Source: a virus. Taken from it: a DNA stretch of 43,321 bases. The position numbers and the translations under genes were made by a program. The notes under the pieces are model-generated. The model saw only the letters and a list, made by a program, of their open reading frames with translations, did no database searches and was not told the origin of the DNA. Every line of letters begins with the position of its first letter. Position 1 is the stretch's first letter. Of the stretch, positions 12,389 to 43,321 are shown in pieces. The stretch is from the IMG/VR virus record IMGVR_UViG_3300007735_000736, positions 1 through 43,321 of that record, one strand, 5' to 3'.

Positions 12389-13171
12389 ATGAAAGATAAA
12401 ATAGGAGTTGGCATTACAACATATAATTCAGAATCTTATTATAAAGCACTATATGAGTCTTTGCCACTTGATAAAATTGATTGCCTAGTTACTGTAAACG
12501 GGGGCGATAAATACCAAAATAATTACGCAGGTGAGTGGATTCAACATACACAAAATAAATATCCATCCGCGTGTCGAAATGAATGTGTAAACCATCTACT
12601 CGAGCAAGGATGTGAGCATATCTTTATTATCGAAGATGATATGATCATTTTAAATCCTAATATATTTGATGAATATATTAATGCTTCAAAAAAAACAGGA
12701 CTAAAATATTTGTGCTTCACAAGCATAAGTTTTGGATCAGGTGCAGCACATAATCGAACGCCAAAAGTAATAATTGACTACCCAACCGGCGCAAGTATCG
12801 CGTTTTACCAAAATATGTGTAACGAGTTCACATATCATCATCGTTCTGCATTTTTAAACACAGGATTGTATGACGCAAATATGAGGGATGCTTTTGATGT
12901 TGACATGGCTTATAGAGAATCAAAAGAAAATTATAGTTCATTGTTTTGGTGGTTCGCAGATATAGTCAATGCAGATAATTTTATAATGAACAATCCAAAT
13001 GCAATAAGCCGAATGGCTGCAGATAGGCCAGACGGCAGCAGATCGGATATTAGTCATAAAATATGGGAATATTTTTACAACAAACACCAAATCAAAGTCA
13101 ATAATATCCCGATACCAAGTCTAGGTGAATTGAAAATTAAACTCAAACAAATATATGACTCAAAAGATTGA
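12389..13171 (+). CDS. GT-A-type glycosyltransferase-like protein
   Basis: A 260-residue protein. The start (KIGVGITTYNSESYYKALYESLP) is the first strand-helix of family-2-like GT-A glycosyltransferases. It is followed by a CRNECVNHLLEQG segment and the acidic metal/nucleotide motif in HIFIIEDDMIILNP. A later part (YRESKENYSSLFWWFADI) would form the acceptor side. It probably moves a sugar from a nucleotide-sugar to an unknown acceptor. First gene of the island; it overlaps the next gene by 17 bases. Confidence 0.65.
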   Translation: MKDKIGVGITTYNSESYYKALYESLPLDKIDCLVTVNGGDKYQNNYAGEWIQHTQNKYPSACRNECVNHLLEQGCEHIFIIEDDMIILNPNIFDEYINASKKTGLKYLCFTSISFGSGAAHNRTPKVIIDYPTGASIAFYQNMCNEFTYHHRSAFLNTGLYDANMRDAFDVDMAYRESKENYSSLFWWFADIVNADNFIMNNPNAISRMAADRPDGSRSDISHKIWEYFYNKHQIKVNNIPIPSLGELKIKLKQIYDSKD

Positions 13172-19138: not shown

Positions 19139-19738
19139 ATGGACAACAGAAAAAATATATTTGATGCAGAACATTATCTATCATTAGATGATGGTTATCC
19201 TGAAAGACCGGTTTCTTGGTTTAAAGAAGCAATGTTACCTAGAATAAATGAGGTACTTGTTAACAAAAAACATTTACTTGATGTTGGCTGTGCTAGTGGA
19301 TATTATACAAAAGAATTTCAAAGAGAAGGATTAACTATAACTGGAATTGATTTTGCCAGTAATAGAATCGAACATGCTATTGCAAAATTCAGCAATCAGA
19401 CGCTGCAATTTATTAACGCAGAGTTAGAAAATTTTAAAACAAATGATATGTATGACTGCATGTTTACGTCGATGGTTATTCAACACATGCCACATCATAT
19501 TAAAATTCAAGCGTTCGAAAATTTAGCAAAGCATGCAACAGACGATTGTTTATTTTTGATGTATGATTTTAATAGCAATAAGGAAGATATTGGTAATGAT
19601 TGGGTTGAACCAGTAAGCCCCCAATGGCTTCGGAAGCATGTGCCGTGGTGGCAAGTCAAATCATGCGAACCATTCTGCAATGAATATGAAACTCCAAATA
19701 GCACCATTTGGGAATACCAACTTATCAAAACAAAATGA
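19139..19738 (+). CDS. Class I SAM methyltransferase (Methyltransf_11-like)
   Basis: A 199-residue methyltransferase with a textbook motif I (HLLDVGCASGYYTKEF), motif II ending in GIDFASNRIEHA, and YDCMFTSMVIQHMPHH as motif IV. Such enzymes methylate small molecules or sugars. The context suggests a sugar or nucleotide-sugar substrate. Its TGA stop overlaps the ATG of the epimerase gene. Confidence 0.8.
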   Translation: MDNRKNIFDAEHYLSLDDGYPERPVSWFKEAMLPRINEVLVNKKHLLDVGCASGYYTKEFQREGLTITGIDFASNRIEHAIAKFSNQTLQFINAELENFKTNDMYDCMFTSMVIQHMPHHIKIQAFENLAKHATDDCLFLMYDFNSNKEDIGNDWVEPVSPQWLRKHVPWWQVKSCEPFCNEYETPNSTIWEYQLIKTK

Positions 19739-20724
19739 ATAAAACAGCATTAGTTCTTGGCGCTGGTGGTTTTATTGGGAATCATTTGGTATCGAGATTA
19801 AAATCTGAAGGATATTGGGTAAGGGGTGTTGATCTAAAATACCCAGAATATTCCCAGACAGATGCAGACGAATTTGTAATCGCAGATTTAAGAGATTATA
19901 ATAAATGCTCATCGATAATAACCCCACCACACCAAACAGCGCACGATAATACACAGATATCATTTGATGAGGTATATCAATTGGCGGCTGATATGGGAGG
20001 AGCTGGATACATCTTTACTGGTGAAAATGACGCAAATATTATGCATAATTCGGCGATGATTAATTTAAATATTTGTGATCTCGCAGTGAAGTTTAATGTC
20101 AAAAAAGTATTTTATTCGAGCAGTGCATGCATATACCCCGCATATAATCAATTAGATCCTAATAATCCGAATTGCAGGGAAGATAGTGCGTACCCAGCAG
20201 CACCAGACTCTGAGTATGGCTGGGAAAAATTATTCAGTGAAAGACTGTATTTAACATATCATCGAAACTATAATTTAGATGTCAGAATTGCAAGATTCCA
20301 CAATATATATGGCCCTTTGGGTGCATGGAATAATGGAAAAGAAAAAGCACCCGCGGCCATTTGTAGAAAGGTGGCAATGGCTACAACTGAAATCGAAATA
20401 TGGGGCGATGGTGATCAAACAAGATCGTTCCTATATATCGATGAATGCATCGAAGGAATCCGACGTCTCATGGAGTCGGATTTTATTGGTCCAGTCAATT
20501 TGGGATCTGAAGAAATGGTTACAATCAATCAACTAGTTGATATTGCATGTTCTATTGAAAATAAACAATTAGCGAAGAAACACATTCCAGGACCAACTGG
20601 TGTCAGGGGACGCAATTCGGATAATACATTGATCGGCGAAATGCTTAACTGGAAACCAAACTATAGCCTATCAAAAGGCATTGAAAATACATACAATTGG
20701 ATTAAAACACAACTCAAATGTTGA
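19735..20724 (+). CDS. GDP-mannose 3,5-epimerase-like protein
   Basis: The ATG at 19735 gives 329 residues, an extended short-chain dehydrogenase. LGAGGFIGNHL binds NAD. The rest tracks plant GDP-D-mannose 3',5'-epimerase closely: ADMGGAGYI, SSACIYP with the catalytic Cys near residue 132, YGWEKLFSE with the Y-x3-K pair, RFHNIYGPLG, EKAPAAICRK, GDGDQTRSFLYIDE and GPTGVRGRNSDN. The reaction turns GDP-D-mannose into GDP-L-galactose (with GDP-L-gulose as by-product). It would feed the GT10-like enzyme of the island. Closely related UDP-sugar epimerases are unlikely given these motifs. Confidence 0.87.
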   Translation: MNKTALVLGAGGFIGNHLVSRLKSEGYWVRGVDLKYPEYSQTDADEFVIADLRDYNKCSSIITPPHQTAHDNTQISFDEVYQLAADMGGAGYIFTGENDANIMHNSAMINLNICDLAVKFNVKKVFYSSSACIYPAYNQLDPNNPNCREDSAYPAAPDSEYGWEKLFSERLYLTYHRNYNLDVRIARFHNIYGPLGAWNNGKEKAPAAICRKVAMATTEIEIWGDGDQTRSFLYIDECIEGIRRLMESDFIGPVNLGSEEMVTINQLVDIACSIENKQLAKKHIPGPTGVRGRNSDNTLIGEMLNWKPNYSLSKGIENTYNWIKTQLKC

Positions 20725-23871: not shown

Positions 23872-23882
23872 ATCTCATGTGG
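23858..23882 (+). promoter_or_regulatory. Hairpin over the DNA polymerase start codon (possible translational operator)
   Basis: CCACATGA (23858-23865) and TCATGTGG (23875-23882) form a perfect 8-bp stem with a 9-base loop. The start ATG of gene 43 (23877-23879) lies inside the 3' arm. T4 gp43 represses its own translation by binding a hairpin at its initiation site. The loop sequence differs, so homology is not claimed. Confidence 0.5.
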
Positions 23883-26800
23883 AGAAATGTTTACTATGAC
23901 AATAGCCGCAAGAAGATTTTCTTGTGGAGTTGGGATAAAAATGGCAAACGCAAAATGTATGATTTTGAGTATGAGCCATTCTTGTATGTAGAGACGAACA
24001 GTGCTCAGTATGATGCAAAAAGTCTCTTCAATACCAACCTTAAAAAGATTGTATTCAAAAACGAATCGGCAAGAAATCAATATGTAAAAGATGCAGGCAT
24101 CAAGCGTGTATTCTACAACCTAAGAGCGGAGCAGCAATTTTTACTTGATCTTTATCGCGATAAAGAATTTGATTGGTCTCATTTGCCATTCAAAACATTT
24201 TATTTGGATATTGAAGTTTATACTGCAAAGTATAAAAATGATAAAAAAGTCAAAATGCGTAAGGCCAAGAATTCAAATGAAGTAATTGAAACAACACTGG
24301 GTGAAATCCGTGGAAATCAGCAAATACTTGAGCAATATGAAATCTGGGACGAAGAGACAAAGGAATGGACTTCATATCATAATTCATGCTATACTCATCA
24401 GTCAGAATTTCCAGAAGCAGACGAAGCAAAACATCCAATCAACGTAATCACAATTTATGATAACATATCTGAAAGCTTTTATAGTTGGGGTTTACATCCG
24501 TACGAAAAATCTGGCATCAACGCCGCGTTCTCATCACAAGGAATTAAAGAGTTGGATGTTCAGAGAATCCATTATACCTATTGTAGAACCGAAACCGAGT
24601 TGCTCCAAAAATTCCTAGAGTTTTGGTCTAAAGATTATCCAGATGCGGTCACGGGATGGAATATTGAAGGGTTTGATATTCCATATATCATTAATCGGAT
24701 TTCTTATGTTTTGGGAGAGGATGATGCAAAGATGCTCTCTCCTGTGCGCAAGCTTTATGTTCGACAAGGAATTGCTACAAAGTTTGGCAGAGAAATTAAT
24801 AAGTGGTATATTCGAGGAATGACTTGTCTTGATTATATGGACTTGTACAAGACCTTTAGTAGAGGCGAACAAGATTCATATTCTCTTAACAACATTGCAG
24901 CAGCAGAGCTTGAAATTGGTAAATTGGCTCACAATGCGTCGGATTTGGCAGCGCTTGCCGAAAGCGATTGGAATTCATTTGTTCATTACAATATTCATGA
25001 CGTAAATCTTGTCAGATTGTTGGATGAAAAATTGAATTATGTTACTATTGCGAGATTCTTAGCTTATAAAGGATTTACCAAAATCGAAGACTCATTGGGT
25101 AAAATTATGATAGTGACGGGCGCGATGTGCAAGGAAGCTAATCGCATGAATAAAATCATTCCGACATTCAATGCAGTTGCAACACAAGAGGATTATGTTG
25201 GTGGATATGTCAGAGAACCGCAGCGTGGATTGAATGAAGCAGTTGTATCATTTGACGCCAACTCCCTATATCCAAATACGATCATCACTCTGAATCTTTC
25301 ACCGGAAACAAAAATCGGTAAAATCATTTACAGGGATGATACCGAATGCAAAGTAAGATTTATCAACAAAAAAGAACAAGTATTTACCATAGACCAGCTT
25401 GAGGAATTTTGTACAAAAGGAAGGCTTGCATTATCACAAGCAGGTGTTTTGTATCGTCAAGATGTCAAAGGCATTTGTCCGGCTTTTATTGATTCTCTTT
25501 ATCAAGAACGGGTTGTTATCCAAAACCAAATTGAACAGCTTGAATCACAACAAGTAACACCAGAAATTAAACATAAGATTAAGCATTTGGATCAGATGCA
25601 GTACACAATCAAGATTTTCTTGAATTCTGCGTATGGTACTTATGCGAACAAATACAGTCCGTTCTATGATATTGATATGGCTGCAAGTATTACGGAAACA
25701 GGGCAGGCGGTTATTAAACAAGCAGCATCGATTGTTAATAAATTCTTTGTCGAGGAAAATGGCTTGCCGGATAAGGATTACATTATCTATGGGGATACTG
25801 ATAGTTGCGTTTCATCTACGATCATTAACACAAATAAAGGTGACATAACGATTGGCGAACTTTTTGACCAATACCAAAATGAAGATACTTTGATTATTGA
25901 TAGCGGACATGAAATACAGCCGATAGACAAGAACTGCAATTTACAATCATTGACATTTGACTCTAAAAACAAGGAAGTCAAATACGGCAATATTAAAAAT
26001 ATCATCAGACACAAAGTATCCAAGAAGAAATACCGAATAAAAGCAGGCGGAAAAGAAGTCATTATGACCGAAGACCATGGTTGTATGGTTTATCGTGATG
26101 GGCAATTACTAAGAGTTTCACCTTCAGATATTCGTAAAACAGATAAAATGGTTGTTTGTGGAATGTCAAATGCATTTAAAATAGTCGACATTGAAGAAGT
26201 CGAAGAAATAGGATCATTCGATGATGAGTATGTATATGACATTGAAATGGACGATGACACCGAACATACATTCTTTGCCAATAGCATATTAGTCCATAAC
26301 TCCATTTACTTGGCGATGAAGGATTATCTTGTAAAACATAATATTCCAATCTTAAAAGAAAACGGCGATGTTACAGAAGAATGTGTAGCAGCAACAGATA
26401 CACTGCAAACATTCATTAATGACAAAATCAATCATTGGGCACGCAATACATTACATTCAGTTGACCCGAGATATTTCTTCAAGAGAGAATCAATTTGTGA
26501 TGTTGGTCTTTTCTTGGAAAAGAAACGGTATATTCTCAGTGTTCGATATGATGGTAAAAGAAATAAGCACAAATACAAATATGTAGGAGTTGAAGTGCAG
26601 CGTAGTACGTATTCAAATGCAGTTAAGAAGTTGATGAAGGATATCATCACGACCGCGTTTAAATCAAAAGATCGTGTGATTACAGATGCAAAGTACAGAG
26701 AATGTTACGAGACTTTCAAGACATTGCCGATTGATGATATTGCATTGCGATCATCGATTAAGGATTATGAGAAATATGCTTCTCAATCAAATGGATTCAA

Positions 26801-27128
26801 TATTGCATTGCATACTCCTATTCATGTCAAATCAGCAATTTATTTCAATACATTAATCAATACATTGAATTTGAAATCAAAATACATGCCGATCATTTCA
26901 GGCACCAAGATTCGGTATGTGTACACAGCTCAAAACAAATATGGACTCAAGTGCATTGGATTTAATGACACAATCCCACCAGAGTTTGATATTAAAATTG
27001 ACACAGAAAAAATGTTTGAGAAGCTCGTTGCACCTTGCATTGAAAGAGTGTATAGTTGTATCGGCTGGCAAATCCCAGACATGAGCAGACAATATCAATG
27101 TGATTTTTTAGATCTTTTTGCCTTATGA
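23877..27128 (+). CDS. 43: Family B DNA polymerase with intein
   Basis: A 1083-residue precursor of the replicative polymerase, about 917 residues after intein removal (T4 gp43 is 898). The proofreading exonuclease has YLDIEVY near residue 110, WNIEGFDIPYI and YNIHDVNLVRLL. The polymerase has motif A SFDANSLYPN near 458, motif B KIFLNSAYGTYANKY near 579, motif C YGDTD (638-642) split by the intein, and LEKKRYI near 882. Start at 23877 is the first ATG in frame and lies in a hairpin. The end overlaps the next gene by ATGA. Splicing is needed to form the catalytic site, so activity depends on it. Confidence 0.95.
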   Translation: MWRNVYYDNSRKKIFLWSWDKNGKRKMYDFEYEPFLYVETNSAQYDAKSLFNTNLKKIVFKNESARNQYVKDAGIKRVFYNLRAEQQFLLDLYRDKEFDWSHLPFKTFYLDIEVYTAKYKNDKKVKMRKAKNSNEVIETTLGEIRGNQQILEQYEIWDEETKEWTSYHNSCYTHQSEFPEADEAKHPINVITIYDNISESFYSWGLHPYEKSGINAAFSSQGIKELDVQRIHYTYCRTETELLQKFLEFWSKDYPDAVTGWNIEGFDIPYIINRISYVLGEDDAKMLSPVRKLYVRQGIATKFGREINKWYIRGMTCLDYMDLYKTFSRGEQDSYSLNNIAAAELEIGKLAHNASDLAALAESDWNSFVHYNIHDVNLVRLLDEKLNYVTIARFLAYKGFTKIEDSLGKIMIVTGAMCKEANRMNKIIPTFNAVATQEDYVGGYVREPQRGLNEAVVSFDANSLYPNTIITLNLSPETKIGKIIYRDDTECKVRFINKKEQVFTIDQLEEFCTKGRLALSQAGVLYRQDVKGICPAFIDSLYQERVVIQNQIEQLESQQVTPEIKHKIKHLDQMQYTIKIFLNSAYGTYANKYSPFYDIDMAASITETGQAVIKQAASIVNKFFVEENGLPDKDYIIYGDTDSCVSSTIINTNKGDITIGELFDQYQNEDTLIIDSGHEIQPIDKNCNLQSLTFDSKNKEVKYGNIKNIIRHKVSKKKYRIKAGGKEVIMTEDHGCMVYRDGQLLRVSPSDIRKTDKMVVCGMSNAFKIVDIEEVEEIGSFDDEYVYDIEMDDDTEHTFFANSILVHNSIYLAMKDYLVKHNIPILKENGDVTEECVAATDTLQTFINDKINHWARNTLHSVDPRYFFKRESICDVGLFLEKKRYILSVRYDGKRNKHKYKYVGVEVQRSTYSNAVKKLMKDIITTAFKSKDRVITDAKYRECYETFKTLPIDDIALRSSIKDYEKYASQSNGFNIALHTPIHVKSAIYFNTLINTLNLKSKYMPIISGTKIRYVYTAQNKYGLKCIGFNDTIPPEFDIKIDTEKMFEKLVAPCIERVYSCIGWQIPDMSRQYQCDFLDLFAL
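25803..26300 (+). other. Mini-intein inside polymerase motif C
   Basis: The 166-residue segment starting at Ser643 and ending at Asn808 interrupts YGDTD|S. N-terminal splicing block: STIINTNKGDITIGELF. TxxH block B: MTEDHGCMVYRDG. C-terminal blocks: YVYDIEMDDDTEHTFFANS and the final VHN followed by Ser+1. No LAGLIDADG or HNH endonuclease is present, so it is a mini-intein. If the intein starts at Ser643, ligation restores the canonical YGDTDSIY; if it starts at Cys644 the product would read YGDTDSSIY. I prefer the first reading. Confidence 0.88.
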
Positions 27129-38981: not shown

Positions 38982-39725
38982 CTAGTAATTACCAAATACG
39001 GAATCTCTATTGTCTGTATATGGTTTAATGGTCTCCGAAATCGCCTCGACGCTACCATCATATACCTTCGCTGGCACTGGTGACGCAGGATTAGTGCCAC
39101 CTGACAATCTACCAAATATTTCTTCGTCAGAAACATCTGGGTTTTCGGCTTCAGGTGGTGCTCCTGGTTCATATGCATATTCAAATCTATTCGCCTCAAG
39201 AAACCATCCATAATGTCTGCCGAGGAAATCACCAGCAGCATTCTTACGATCGTAACGCTGTGTTACTTCAAATACTTCAGCAGTTCTTTGGCCCTTACGA
39301 CCACATCCTGTATTAACTACTACAAACACATCTCCTGTTTTGGGTTCATCATTAGGGAAATATGTATCCCAAACATCAAATGGAATAGCGACACTCACTT
39401 CCGCTGATGTCTTTATACCGAATTTGCTCAATACATTACTGTTCTTGGTTATTTCGACATACGCTCTGAAGGTAGTATCGTCACCAAATCCAGCCATCAG
39501 ATCTTCGCCGAATAACGTATTCATTTGCTCAAGCTCAAGCTTATAAGGATAATACCGTATCATTACGCCATATAAGTTTACGATATCTCTCAACCAACTG
39601 CCATATGTTAATTGATCATTGATTGGCTGCGAAGCACATGATGGAACATACGAATAAGGATTTGTGTCTGAATCATTCGGATTAAATGAAAAGGGCTCGT
39701 CTTGAGGATTGAAAGTAAAGGCCAT
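38982..39725 (-). CDS. 14: gp14-like neck protein
   Basis: A 247-residue minus-strand protein (T4 gp14 is 256), part of the neck that closes the filled head and joins it to the tail. The pattern YYPYKLELEQMNTLFGEDL, AYVEITKNSNVLSKFGI, AEVSVAIPFDVW, EPKTGDVFVV and a long acidic end parallels T4 gp14 (PDLIFGEDL; SFFSNFGM; DEVTLSINP; EPKEGDLIYF). It points away from the gp15 fusion gene, with 22 bases between start codons. Confidence 0.78.
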   Translation of the reverse strand: MAFTFNPQDEPFSFNPNDSDTNPYSYVPSCASQPINDQLTYGSWLRDIVNLYGVMIRYYPYKLELEQMNTLFGEDLMAGFGDDTTFRAYVEITKNSNVLSKFGIKTSAEVSVAIPFDVWDTYFPNDEPKTGDVFVVVNTGCGRKGQRTAEVFEVTQRYDRKNAAGDFLGRHYGWFLEANRFEYAYEPGAPPEAENPDVSDEEIFGRLSGGTNPASPVPAKVYDGSVEAISETIKPYTDNRDSVFGNY

Positions 39726-39728
39726 CGG

Positions 39729-39740
39729 TAAATATATTTA
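39729..39740. promoter_or_regulatory. Palindromic late-promoter-like element between gp14 and gp15 genes
   Basis: TAAATATATTTA reads the same on both strands. It gives TAAATA for the plus-strand gene (13 bases before its ATG) and for the minus-strand gene (9 bases before its ATG). It could drive both neck genes from overlapping late promoters. Confidence 0.4.
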
Positions 39741-39747
39741 TTACAGA

Positions 39748-41769
39748 ATGCGCGACTATACCTACAATTTTGAAATAGAGGATTTGATTGTTCAATTTAT
39801 TGACGCATTTAATGATGTTATTATTAAGCGCTATAATAAAGACAGGGTCGCACAAGATCATATACATGCCAATTTTGTATATTCTCCTAAAAAGAGAATG
39901 ATCTATGACATTTTAAATAAAAATCCAAATCCAGTGAATATGCCGACAATTGCGGTGTATATTAAAAGCATTTCGAGGGATTCATCAAGGGTTGAAAATA
40001 AAATAGATAAAAGTTTTTACGTTAACGATTCAGGCACATACAAGCAAAGAAGACAACCAGTACCTGTGAATGTTCAGATGGGGATGTCTGTAATAACAAA
40101 GAGCACCCAAGACATGCTTCAGTTGATGAGCAACTGGGTTCCGTATACAGATCCATATATCTACATCGATGTCGTTGACCCAAGTACAAAACAAACATTA
40201 AGAACAAAGGTTACATGGACTGGAGAAATTTCGATTAATCAAGAACTAGACGTCCCTGACAATTCAACATTTCGAACAGGATTCGACACTTCATTTACAA
40301 TCGAGGGCTATTTATTTAAAGCACCTATAGGAGATGAAGGGCATATTTGTAAGGTGGTTACAAATATGATATCTGTTACATCGATGAACAACTGCTTCCT
40401 CGATATCCAATCATTTGAAAAATCAATCAACGCGACAGAAGACAACAAGATTACATTCTCTATTAAGGGTGTACCTAAACTTAGATGCTTGTCGCCGTTT
40501 GCGATGAATCTTGGATTAACCAAGTATAATTTCCAAATCACAGGGCAAAACCTAGACTTTACATCAAATCTATACATAAGTGCAACGCCAGGGATGTTCC
40601 CTACATCTGCATACAATTATTACAATCTATTTCCAGATACTAGTGCAACTTCTGCAATTAACGTATGCTCTGAGAATCCGTCAGTAACAACGTCAATTAC
40701 ATCAAGCGAATGCCCGCCATTCTACGCAATTCCTATATCAGCATATACGATCAATTCAGTGGGTAATACAATTGATTTTACATTACCATATACACCAGCC
40801 ACAGAAGGCATATTCGATATAATCGCAACATCAAAGTGTGGCTGCTCTAGGCTATCAATTGATAGCATTCTCGAAACGTATAATCCTTATCCATCTGGCA
40901 CAAATGATTATGAAAATTATATTCCATATCAACCACCATATGCACAAACTGAATATGGAGGTGCAGTAATCTTTAATGTTAATTGCGACGATTTGGCAGG
41001 AAGAGTAATTGCATTGGAGGCGCTAACTGCAGGATACACATCCACTCAAAATACAGTAACAGCAAACAGTGCGAATTGGAATGCAGCATATAGTATAATA
41101 TCCGCAAATAGTGCTAGTTGGAATAATGCATATGCACTGTCATTAGCAAATTCGGCTACATTGATACAAATATCCGCATATACCTTAACAAGCACAAATA
41201 CACCAAACGCAGCGTTAGCCCAGCTCAGTGCTGATGTAATTTCTCTATCCGCGTCTCTCGGTGCCCTAGAATATCATCATTATAATTCCACGTACAGTGT
41301 TCTTGGTGATTTTATAACATACGAATATAGCACAGCCAATGTCAGCAGAGGCGATACAGTTAAGCTCGCAAACGGTCGTATATTTTTATTAACAACCAGT
41401 AGCGGTACATTGTCTGCAGATTATCTTGAGATAAATCCATATCCAATACAACCAATATACATTACGAATATATCAAATTATGGTACTGTAAATACTTTTA
41501 ATCTGTCATCATTCAATACAGCCAAATATACAATGCAAGTAGATGACCTCGCACTGAGCGCATCACAATACTCAGAACTCGTAGTTATAGCATCAAACAC
41601 AGATTCATCAATATTAGAGTATGCATTGACTTACACATCAGGATCTCCATTAGTTGAATATGGTGTTTACTCCAATGGAGTGACAGTAACATTATCAGCA
41701 TATTCAGTTGTGGGGTCGATGACGAATAAAACATTCAAAGGAACGCGCACTAATTTCTTTAAGAGATGA
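39748..41769 (+). CDS. 15: gp15-like tail terminator fused to fibre-like domains
   Basis: A 673-residue protein from the ATG at 39748 (a TTG 13 codons earlier is less likely). Residues 1-200 match T4 gp15, which ends the tail tube and sheath (T4 length 272): DLIVQFIDAFNDVIIKRYN, VPVNVQMGMSVITKSTQDML, QLMSNWVPYTDPY and the closing FTIEGYLFKAP. Then come about 60 residues of further strand, an Ig/IPT-like domain (about 240-380), a repeat segment (440-490) with NSANW units, and a globular end domain (510-673). Such an addition is not part of T4 gp15. It may display fibres around the neck like a whisker or collar. No stop or frameshift separates the parts. Confidence 0.75.
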   Translation: MRDYTYNFEIEDLIVQFIDAFNDVIIKRYNKDRVAQDHIHANFVYSPKKRMIYDILNKNPNPVNMPTIAVYIKSISRDSSRVENKIDKSFYVNDSGTYKQRRQPVPVNVQMGMSVITKSTQDMLQLMSNWVPYTDPYIYIDVVDPSTKQTLRTKVTWTGEISINQELDVPDNSTFRTGFDTSFTIEGYLFKAPIGDEGHICKVVTNMISVTSMNNCFLDIQSFEKSINATEDNKITFSIKGVPKLRCLSPFAMNLGLTKYNFQITGQNLDFTSNLYISATPGMFPTSAYNYYNLFPDTSATSAINVCSENPSVTTSITSSECPPFYAIPISAYTINSVGNTIDFTLPYTPATEGIFDIIATSKCGCSRLSIDSILETYNPYPSGTNDYENYIPYQPPYAQTEYGGAVIFNVNCDDLAGRVIALEALTAGYTSTQNTVTANSANWNAAYSIISANSASWNNAYALSLANSATLIQISAYTLTSTNTPNAALAQLSADVISLSASLGALEYHHYNSTYSVLGDFITYEYSTANVSRGDTVKLANGRIFLLTTSSGTLSADYLEINPYPIQPIYITNISNYGTVNTFNLSSFNTAKYTMQVDDLALSASQYSELVVIASNTDSSILEYALTYTSGSPLVEYGVYSNGVTVTLSAYSVVGSMTNKTFKGTRTNFFKR

Positions 41770-42524
41770 CACTATTTTTAACACGAAGAGTTTCTGCGCT
41801 GGAGGCGCTGACTGCGGCATATACTAGCACACAGACTGTAGTATATACCAATAGCGCATCGTGGCAAAATTCGTTCACAATATTAACAAGCAATAGTGCA
41901 ACATGGTTGCTCACGGATCAAATAAACGCTTCTATTGGATCCTTTGTAACTTCGATCACTGCGGTATCTGCAAGTATCCTTAATCTATCTTTGTTAGTGT
42001 CAGGCATAAGTGCTGATATTACCGATACACCTTTTGATAATTTTAACTCAAATTATAATACTCTTACTGGCTTCATAACATATGAATTAGGTTCTGTGAA
42101 TATTCATAAAGGCGATACAGTGTATCTCAAAAATGGCAAAATATTCATGTTCGCCACAGGCAATGGCTCATCTGCAAACGACTATATCAATATAAACGAT
42201 AATGTAGCTGATGTCATTTATGCCAAAAATTTAAGTGCAGGTGACGTATTAGACGCGTTTGCATTGTCGTCTATCGGTGCTATAAAATATGAAATTGAAG
42301 TTAAAGACACGTCTACCAACGATTTATATTTTTCATCTCTTATAGTGAATCCATCAAATACTGCTGTAGACTTAATTGAATATTCGATCGTATATACATC
42401 AACACCATTTATTTCATATGATGCGATTGTTTCATCGTCAGCTGTCATACTGAAAGCATCGACAACCCAGAATACTCTGTCGACGAAAGAATTTAAGGGC
42501 ATTAGACTAAAACATTATGTATAA
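41766..42524 (+). CDS. Fibre-like protein, duplicate of the gp15-fusion C-terminus
   Basis: A 252-residue protein that parallels residues 422-673 of the preceding gene along its whole length: RRVSALEALTAAYTSTQT against GRVIALEALTAGYTSTQN, GFITYELGSVNIHKGDTVYL against DFITYEYSTANVSRGDTVKL, and STKEFKGIRL against TNKTFKGTRT. It has the same NSASW unit and coiled N-terminus. It starts in an ATGA overlap. Probably a virion fibre or decoration protein that assembles with its parent. Confidence 0.75.
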   Translation: MTLFLTRRVSALEALTAAYTSTQTVVYTNSASWQNSFTILTSNSATWLLTDQINASIGSFVTSITAVSASILNLSLLVSGISADITDTPFDNFNSNYNTLTGFITYELGSVNIHKGDTVYLKNGKIFMFATGNGSSANDYININDNVADVIYAKNLSAGDVLDAFALSSIGAIKYEIEVKDTSTNDLYFSSLIVNPSNTAVDLIEYSIVYTSTPFISYDAIVSSSAVILKASTTQNTLSTKEFKGIRLKHYV

Positions 42525-42558: not shown

Positions 42559-43321
42559 ATGGCCGGATATGACAAAGCATTTATCGTAAGAAACTACTTT
42601 AACGCACTAAGTGGTGCGTTATTCGGAAATACAATATCAGGGGTTTCAATCAATACATCTGGTAAAATATTATCAGCAGGGGTTGATTTATCACAACTAT
42701 TTGCATCACAATATAGTGCAGCAAGCTGGACTGCTGCATATACAACACTAACATCAAATAGTGCTAGCTGGAATAATACGACAATTATAGTAATAGCAAA
42801 TAGCGCCAATTGGAATTCGGCATATACAACATTAACAGCCAATAGTGCAATATGGAATAATACAACGTCAACAGTAAACACCAACAGCGCCAATTGGAAT
42901 GCATCTTATACAATAGTAAATACCAACAGTGCTAATTGGGGATCTGCGTATACAACACTGACGGCGAATAGTGCAGGATGGAATAATACTACAAGCACAG
43001 TAAACACTAATAGTGCAAATTGGAATGCTGCATATGTTGCAGTAAATTCAAATAGCGCAAATTGGAATGCATCTTATACAACACTGACGACGAATAGCGC
43101 CAATTGGAATTCTACATATGCTACAGTAACAGCAAATAGTGCTTCCTGGGGATCAGGCAGTGGTAATGCTGCAGTCAATGCAGCAGTGACAGCGAACAGC
43201 GCTAACTGGAATACATCGTATACAACATTAACAGCTAATAGTGCCAATTGGAATTCTACATATGCTACAGTAACAGCTAATAGCGCCTCATGGGGCTCAG
43301 GTGGCGGCAATACTGCGGTTA
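42559..43321 (+). CDS. Repetitive tail fibre protein (partial, 3' end outside)
   Basis: An ATG at 42559 opens a frame that stays open to the window end (254 codons seen). About 65 residues of unique N-terminus (RNYFNALSGALFGNTIS; an ATG-proximal attachment part) are followed by at least twelve 14-residue repeats of the type NSANWNSAYTTLTA. Trp and Asn stand at fixed places. Two units are replaced by SWGSGSGN-type hinges. A long thin fibre shaft is expected; the receptor-binding tip lies beyond the window. Confidence 0.85.
   Translation, partial: MAGYDKAFIVRNYFNALSGALFGNTISGVSINTSGKILSAGVDLSQLFASQYSAASWTAAYTTLTSNSASWNNTTIIVIANSANWNSAYTTLTANSAIWNNTTSTVNTNSANWNASYTIVNTNSANWGSAYTTLTANSAGWNNTTSTVNTNSANWNAAYVAVNSNSANWNASYTTLTTNSANWNSTYATVTANSASWGSGSGNAAVNAAVTANSANWNTSYTTLTANSANWNSTYATVTANSASWGSGGGNTAV
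42757..43321 (+). repeat. 42-bp tandem repeats coding for a fibre shaft
   Basis: Units of 42 bases encode NSAxWN... 14-mers: about thirteen units, with two or more longer units carrying GSGSGN or GSGGGN hinges. Single units also occur in the two upstream genes (41065 on and about 41850 on). The array runs past the window end. Confidence 0.9.

Follow-up and report, generated by a model that had tools for sequence, protein, structure and literature searches.

The open reading frame (ORF) at positions 39748 to 41769 of the window, by which we mean the whole stretch of 43,321 nucleotides of viral DNA analysed here, encodes a predicted gp15-type tail sheath terminator that probably carries a permanent C-terminal appendage, its ring anchoring neck appendages that would be displayed as fibres. 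The frame lies on the plus strand and runs uninterrupted from the ATG at 39748 to the TGA at 41769, specifying 673 amino acids (aa). A TTG 39 nt upstream could lengthen it; the relatives align from the Met at 39748.

This ORF is real and intact. The record is a metagenome fragment, which would leave room for a sequencing or assembly artefact or for a chance resemblance to gp15. The probability of this is negligible: the complete fused frame is shared by L008 and by six near-identical contigs from different datasets (L001-L005 and L007; a further one, L006, ends at residue 498 of the frame), and E-values down to 1e-19, together with fold matches, already contradict it. The first-pass annotation had proposed looking for the same fusion in related phages, and it was found in these contigs as well as in L008-L010, a diverged lineage of 64-68% identity, where it is complete in L008 alone, as a chain of 1028 aa. 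The gp15 domains of the two lineages are 76% identical. Because the fusion is present in independent near-identical contigs and in the diverged lineage, it is not an assembly error, and that candidate explanation was ruled out. In a comparison of the window with L004, dN/dS was 0.01 for the gp15 part, 0.03 for the Ig part and 0.05 for the fibre part, and the entire fused frame is under purifying selection. A search for a cultured close relative of the window region found none, the C-terminal 456 aa matched no record in the phage collection, and the plasmids and genome_contigs searched held no relatives.

By sequence family and predicted fold, residues 4-212 are assigned to the gp15-type sheath terminators. 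They match the Pfam family PF16724 (T4-gp15_tss) with an E-value of 2e-19 when residues 1-395 are the query and 6e-19 for the whole chain, scoring 68.6-70.2 bits against a curated cut-off of 25 and covering positions 1-211 of the 245 in the profile; the tail sheath stabilizer family phrog_227 is also matched (E 1.5e-17). Searched against the phage collection, residues 1-217 match 403 records, and among the 60 matches listed almost every annotated one is a gp15, a tail sheath stabilizer or a tail-completion protein. The AlphaFold2 model of the full chain, built with 19 relatives, is weak (mean pLDDT 46.6, below 50 in the fibre half) and served only to assess the terminator fold and, roughly, the secondary structure; its top PDB match is T4 gp15 (4huh, E 6.6e-9). 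When residues 1-395 were modelled separately with 31 relatives, confidence was moderate (mean pLDDT 64.7). Foldseek matched this second model to T4 gp15 (4huh and 9mkb, E 3.5e-9 to 1.5e-7, target TM at most 0.63) and, next in the PDB, to the terminators of P1, Sf14, T5 and others, from both contractile and non-contractile tails; several of its named matches in a viral structure library are tail sheath stabilizers. PF16724, phrog_227 and the Foldseek matches thus bear out the first-pass assignment of residues 1-200 to gp15. Structure prediction, suggested there as a check on whether these residues might not be gp15-like, returned a gp15-like fold, and the division of residues ~200-673 into an Ig-like domain, NSANW repeats and an end domain agrees with the domain split in Table 1. 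Sister contigs of 196 kb and 193 kb (called linear) contain one gp15 match apiece, and no second plain gp15 gene was found in these two contigs, which were the scope searched. Because the fused gp15 is the sole one detected there, it is presumably the working terminator of the phage.

Table 1. Domains of the 673-aa chain and neighbouring genes in the window
Feature	Positions	Strand	Evidence
gp15-like tail sheath terminator domain, residues 1-212	39748..40383	+	PF16724, phrog_227, Foldseek T4 gp15
Ig-like beta-sandwich, ~residues 232-375	40441..40872	+	predicted strands, weak Foldseek, TIG, clade conservation
Pro/Tyr-rich linker, ~residues 376-412	40873..40983	+	low confidence in both models; conserved in L008
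Coiled-coil shaft, NSANW-type 14-residue repeats, ~residues 413-505	40984..41262	+	period 14, predicted helices
Beta-rich end module, ~residues 506-673, and stop codon	41263..41769	+	predicted strands (low confidence), homologous modules
252-aa paralogue of coiled coil and end module, without gp15/Ig anchor	41766..42524	+	37% identity
Start of long NSANW-repeat fibre gene, running off the window	42559..43321	+	ORF reading, repeats
gp14-like neck protein (head closure Hc2)	38982..39725	-	PF11649 3.4e-6, phrog_679 1.1e-7

Beyond the terminator, residues 235-372 of the second model are predicted beta strands, with pLDDT of 70-85 in part, and residues ~232-375 are compatible with an Ig-like sandwich. 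Foldseek matches of this part to Ig folds are weak, and a TIG match (E 0.0034), obtained in just one of 31 relatives, gives weak sequence support for the Ig type. A Cys-bearing insert near residues 300-325 is found in the group of the window, L008 and L030. The Ig-like part is conserved clade-wide; it is not peculiar to the window phage but common in the clade, at times as an ORF of its own, and the fibre is a later addition. In the fibre half, the NSANW repeat has a period of 14 and a core spacing of 3-4-3-4, that is, two coiled-coil heptads. The heptad pattern is strong in the nearby long fibres, with only two to three repeats in the gp15 chain, where the low-confidence full-chain model places helices at 413-432, 442-458 and 486-505. 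Searches with the end module gave no usable family (best phrog_28414, E 0.089); its homologues are the ORF at 41766-42524 and a separate 291-aa protein of other phages (L065). The fibre gene that starts at 42559 encodes 1373 aa in the sister contig L004. The order of the genes does not in itself prove that the products of the fibre genes nearby are located at the neck.

The six-fold symmetry of the ring is not directly compatible with a shaft that is probably a trimer. With trimeric coiled coils, a hexamer would carry two fibres instead of six unless further chains were provided in trans, and the candidate supplier of such chains is the anchorless paralogue at 41766-42524. This ORF is 37% identical to residues 416-670 of the fused chain, begins right at the start of the coiled coil (ALEALTA-YTSTQ), has the same end module and is kept by purifying selection (dN/dS 0.08 against L004); its start codon overlaps the stop codon of gp15 (ATGA), which suggests coupled translation. 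Each gp15-Ig chain may combine with two copies of the paralogue into six trimeric fibres on the ring, and the symmetry problem would then vanish. We hold such mixed trimers to be unlikely: in L008, which has the fused fibre, the ORF that follows is of another kind and 120 aa long, and 37% identity is perhaps too low.

The relatives form an evolutionary series, which was built from the window lineage and 85 complete relatives from metagenomes. The selection of relatives kept the 80 best out of at least 564, so the proportions of the states do not stand for the clade as a whole. In cultured phages, gp15 is 261-385 aa long in the six genes measured, and the gene order is gp13-gp14-gp15, usually with gp16 next. 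Among the relatives, the first state is a plain gp15 with the portal behind it; in the second, a separate Ig-like ORF adjoins or overlaps the end of gp15, often with ATGA. The third is a gp15-Ig fusion of about 338-480 aa with the portal usually 4-90 bp behind, and the fourth comprises the long fusions, which fall into two groups on the gp15-domain tree. One consists of the window, L004 and L008 (673-1028 aa); in its sister group, L030/L031, the chain goes no further than the Ig domain, with the portal 65 bp on. Between gp15 and portal, L004 carries 6.0 kb of fibre genes, compared with these 65 bp in L031. The other is the L102 group, with chains of 1092-1170 aa that contain eight PF16403 Ig repeats (1.6e-110), a string without a match among phage records; its near neighbours L138 and L148 have a single Ig domain each. 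The tree requires at least two gains of the long extension, and the long fusions arose in two independent lineages. ORFs that were named fibre- or spike-like by eye occupy the same gp15-portal slot in L044, L048, L056, L101 and L154.

In L101, L109, L153, L161, L124, L099, L112, L098, L115, L139 and L141, the Ig part is separate and lies in another frame right after the gp15 stop, with an ATGA overlap at the split in L101, L109, L153, L161 and L115; the split points vary by lineage. An Ig ORF that overlaps or adjoins the gp15 stop suggests that the two parts work together. A quick motif scan for programmed frameshifting found no classical in-frame slippery heptamer before the stop at these junctions, and reinitiation at ATGA or across a short gap looks likelier. 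L147 (7001 onward) and L160 (4627 onward) contain tandem gp15-like genes, a plain gp15 of 240 aa and then a second paralogue, one of which could by analogy be another terminator, compare T4 gp3 and gp15.

That some relatives encode the Ig part in an ORF of its own, that the fibre cassette lies between gp15 and the portal, and that its module is also an independent ORF just downstream would be in keeping with the view that the fibre half, cleaved off or internally initiated, belongs to a tail fibre away from the neck, the fusion being a by-product of a cassette that landed in frame. This we regard as very unlikely, given that the fusion is in frame in two diverged lineages, with a conserved linker and low dN/dS, and that an analogous long fusion arose in a second lineage.

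For a terminator with a permanent appendage, we infer ring assembly, outward display, a fibre oligomer and a function along the following lines. The gp15 domain would make the usual ring, capping the sheath and docked to gp14, and the C-termini of the subunits would lead outwards through the Ig-like domain and the coiled-coil shaft to the beta-rich end module. In T4, the gp14 arms bind gp15 residues 203-245 (PMC12270204); because the extension begins past the region bound by these arms, it can plausibly, by analogy, leave the ring with the gp14 contact unblocked. The neck would thus bear short fibres as a built-in collar, without a separate whisker protein, and the appendage would probably contact the host surface or the medium, or hold tail fibres as T4 fibritin does. 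As to its origin, the appendage was probably acquired in steps: an Ig-like domain joined gp15, a fibre cassette was then inserted between gp15 and the portal, and the first module of the cassette was finally joined onto gp15-Ig.

Rather than sensing surfaces or acting as an adhesin, the C-terminal part might instead aid assembly, for instance by folding back or attaching tail fibres or by reinforcing the neck. In T4, neck fibres and long tail fibres interact (PMC12270204), and the neck decoration proteins of phage 812 are thought to reinforce the neck (PMC12886913). Among close relatives, however, the extension changes fast, from none to eight Ig repeats, which fits an outward-facing part better, and an assembly role seems to us improbable.

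The window protein shares its sequence family and, over residues 4-212, its predicted fold with T4 gp15 (PDB 4hud, 4huh and 9mkb; PF16724), and both have a gp14 or gp14-like gene as neighbour. T4 gp15, however, has 272 aa and no fibre, whereas more than half of the window chain is appendage; in the window gp14 is read in the opposite direction, and the genes that follow are those for fibres and then the portal, whereas in T4 they are gp16/gp17. As the first-pass annotation had stated, the whiskers of T4 consist of a separate protein; they are bound to gp13, not to gp15 (PMC12270204). T4 fibritin (gpWac) resembles the window appendage in its coiled-coil shaft and in the neck position presumed for the latter, and some fibritins, of the RB43 type, have Ig-like domains (PMC3797505); it is, however, a separate trimer on domain III of gp13, present twelve times per virion (PMC12270204), while the anchor in the window would be the terminator itself. 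The 673-aa protein has no fibritin match in Pfam or PHROG, and a search of the sister contigs found neither PF07921 nor a match to a Vibrio phage fibritin, a weak negative in which a positive control from a close relative was lacking.

The Anabaena phage A-1(L), which has a contractile tail, bears fibres at its neck (gp82-gp81-gp80), as the window phage would. Unlike the window fusion, those of A-1(L) are separate trimers seated on a neck ring of 15-fold symmetry, with five in each virion, and fibres on the hexameric terminator gp8 are not reported (PMC10966104). C-terminal Ig-like extensions, in frame or out of frame depending on the phage, occur on phage virion proteins; the carriers named in the part of PMC5009743 drawn on here are coat and major tail proteins, whereas in the window the carrier is a terminator and a fibre follows. 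The split Ig forms of the window clade, for their part, look like overlapping ORFs, and their junctions show no clear slippery site. The cultured, T4-like Vibrio phage EniLVp02 also has a C-terminally extended gp15 (385 aa, L162 2435-3592), an extension that has gone unremarked; it consists of about 160 aa of short repeats (S..F.Y...), not of Ig domain and coiled coil, and this phage also carries a fibritin gene.

Several other features of the window were recorded. The divergent gp14 and gp15 genes are separated by 22 nt (39726-39747) that hold the palindrome TAAATATATTTA; their promoters must sit inside neighbouring genes; the T4 late promoter motif TATAAATA showed no enrichment. No RNA families or tRNAs were found in the window. 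A family B DNA polymerase ORF (23877-27125, plus strand; 1083 aa) contains a probable intein, residues 653-808 matching Intein_splicing at E 2.8e-8 with 34.1 bits, just below the cut-off of 35.8. Glycosyltransferase-like and nucleotide-sugar epimerase genes (12389-13168 and 19708-20721; phrog_2456 and phrog_540) suggest sugar modification by the phage.

On a broader reading, which we put forward as doubtful, the gp15 C-terminus would be a general, evolvable neck mounting point across a large uncultured T4-like clade, used according to lineage for Ig strings, for coiled-coil fibres or for separate overlapping Ig proteins, and the window phage would in addition form six 1:2 mixed trimers. If the appendage is displayed, the terminator ring itself would make the neck fibres, with no need for a whisker protein and a binding site for it, and because gp15 is presumed to be essential and present only once in the genome, assembly would dictate how many such fibres there are and where they sit. 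Among the relatives there is a natural series in which the appendage is absent, separate, fused, or fused and extended, the last twice over, and with it the origin of neck fibres becomes testable.
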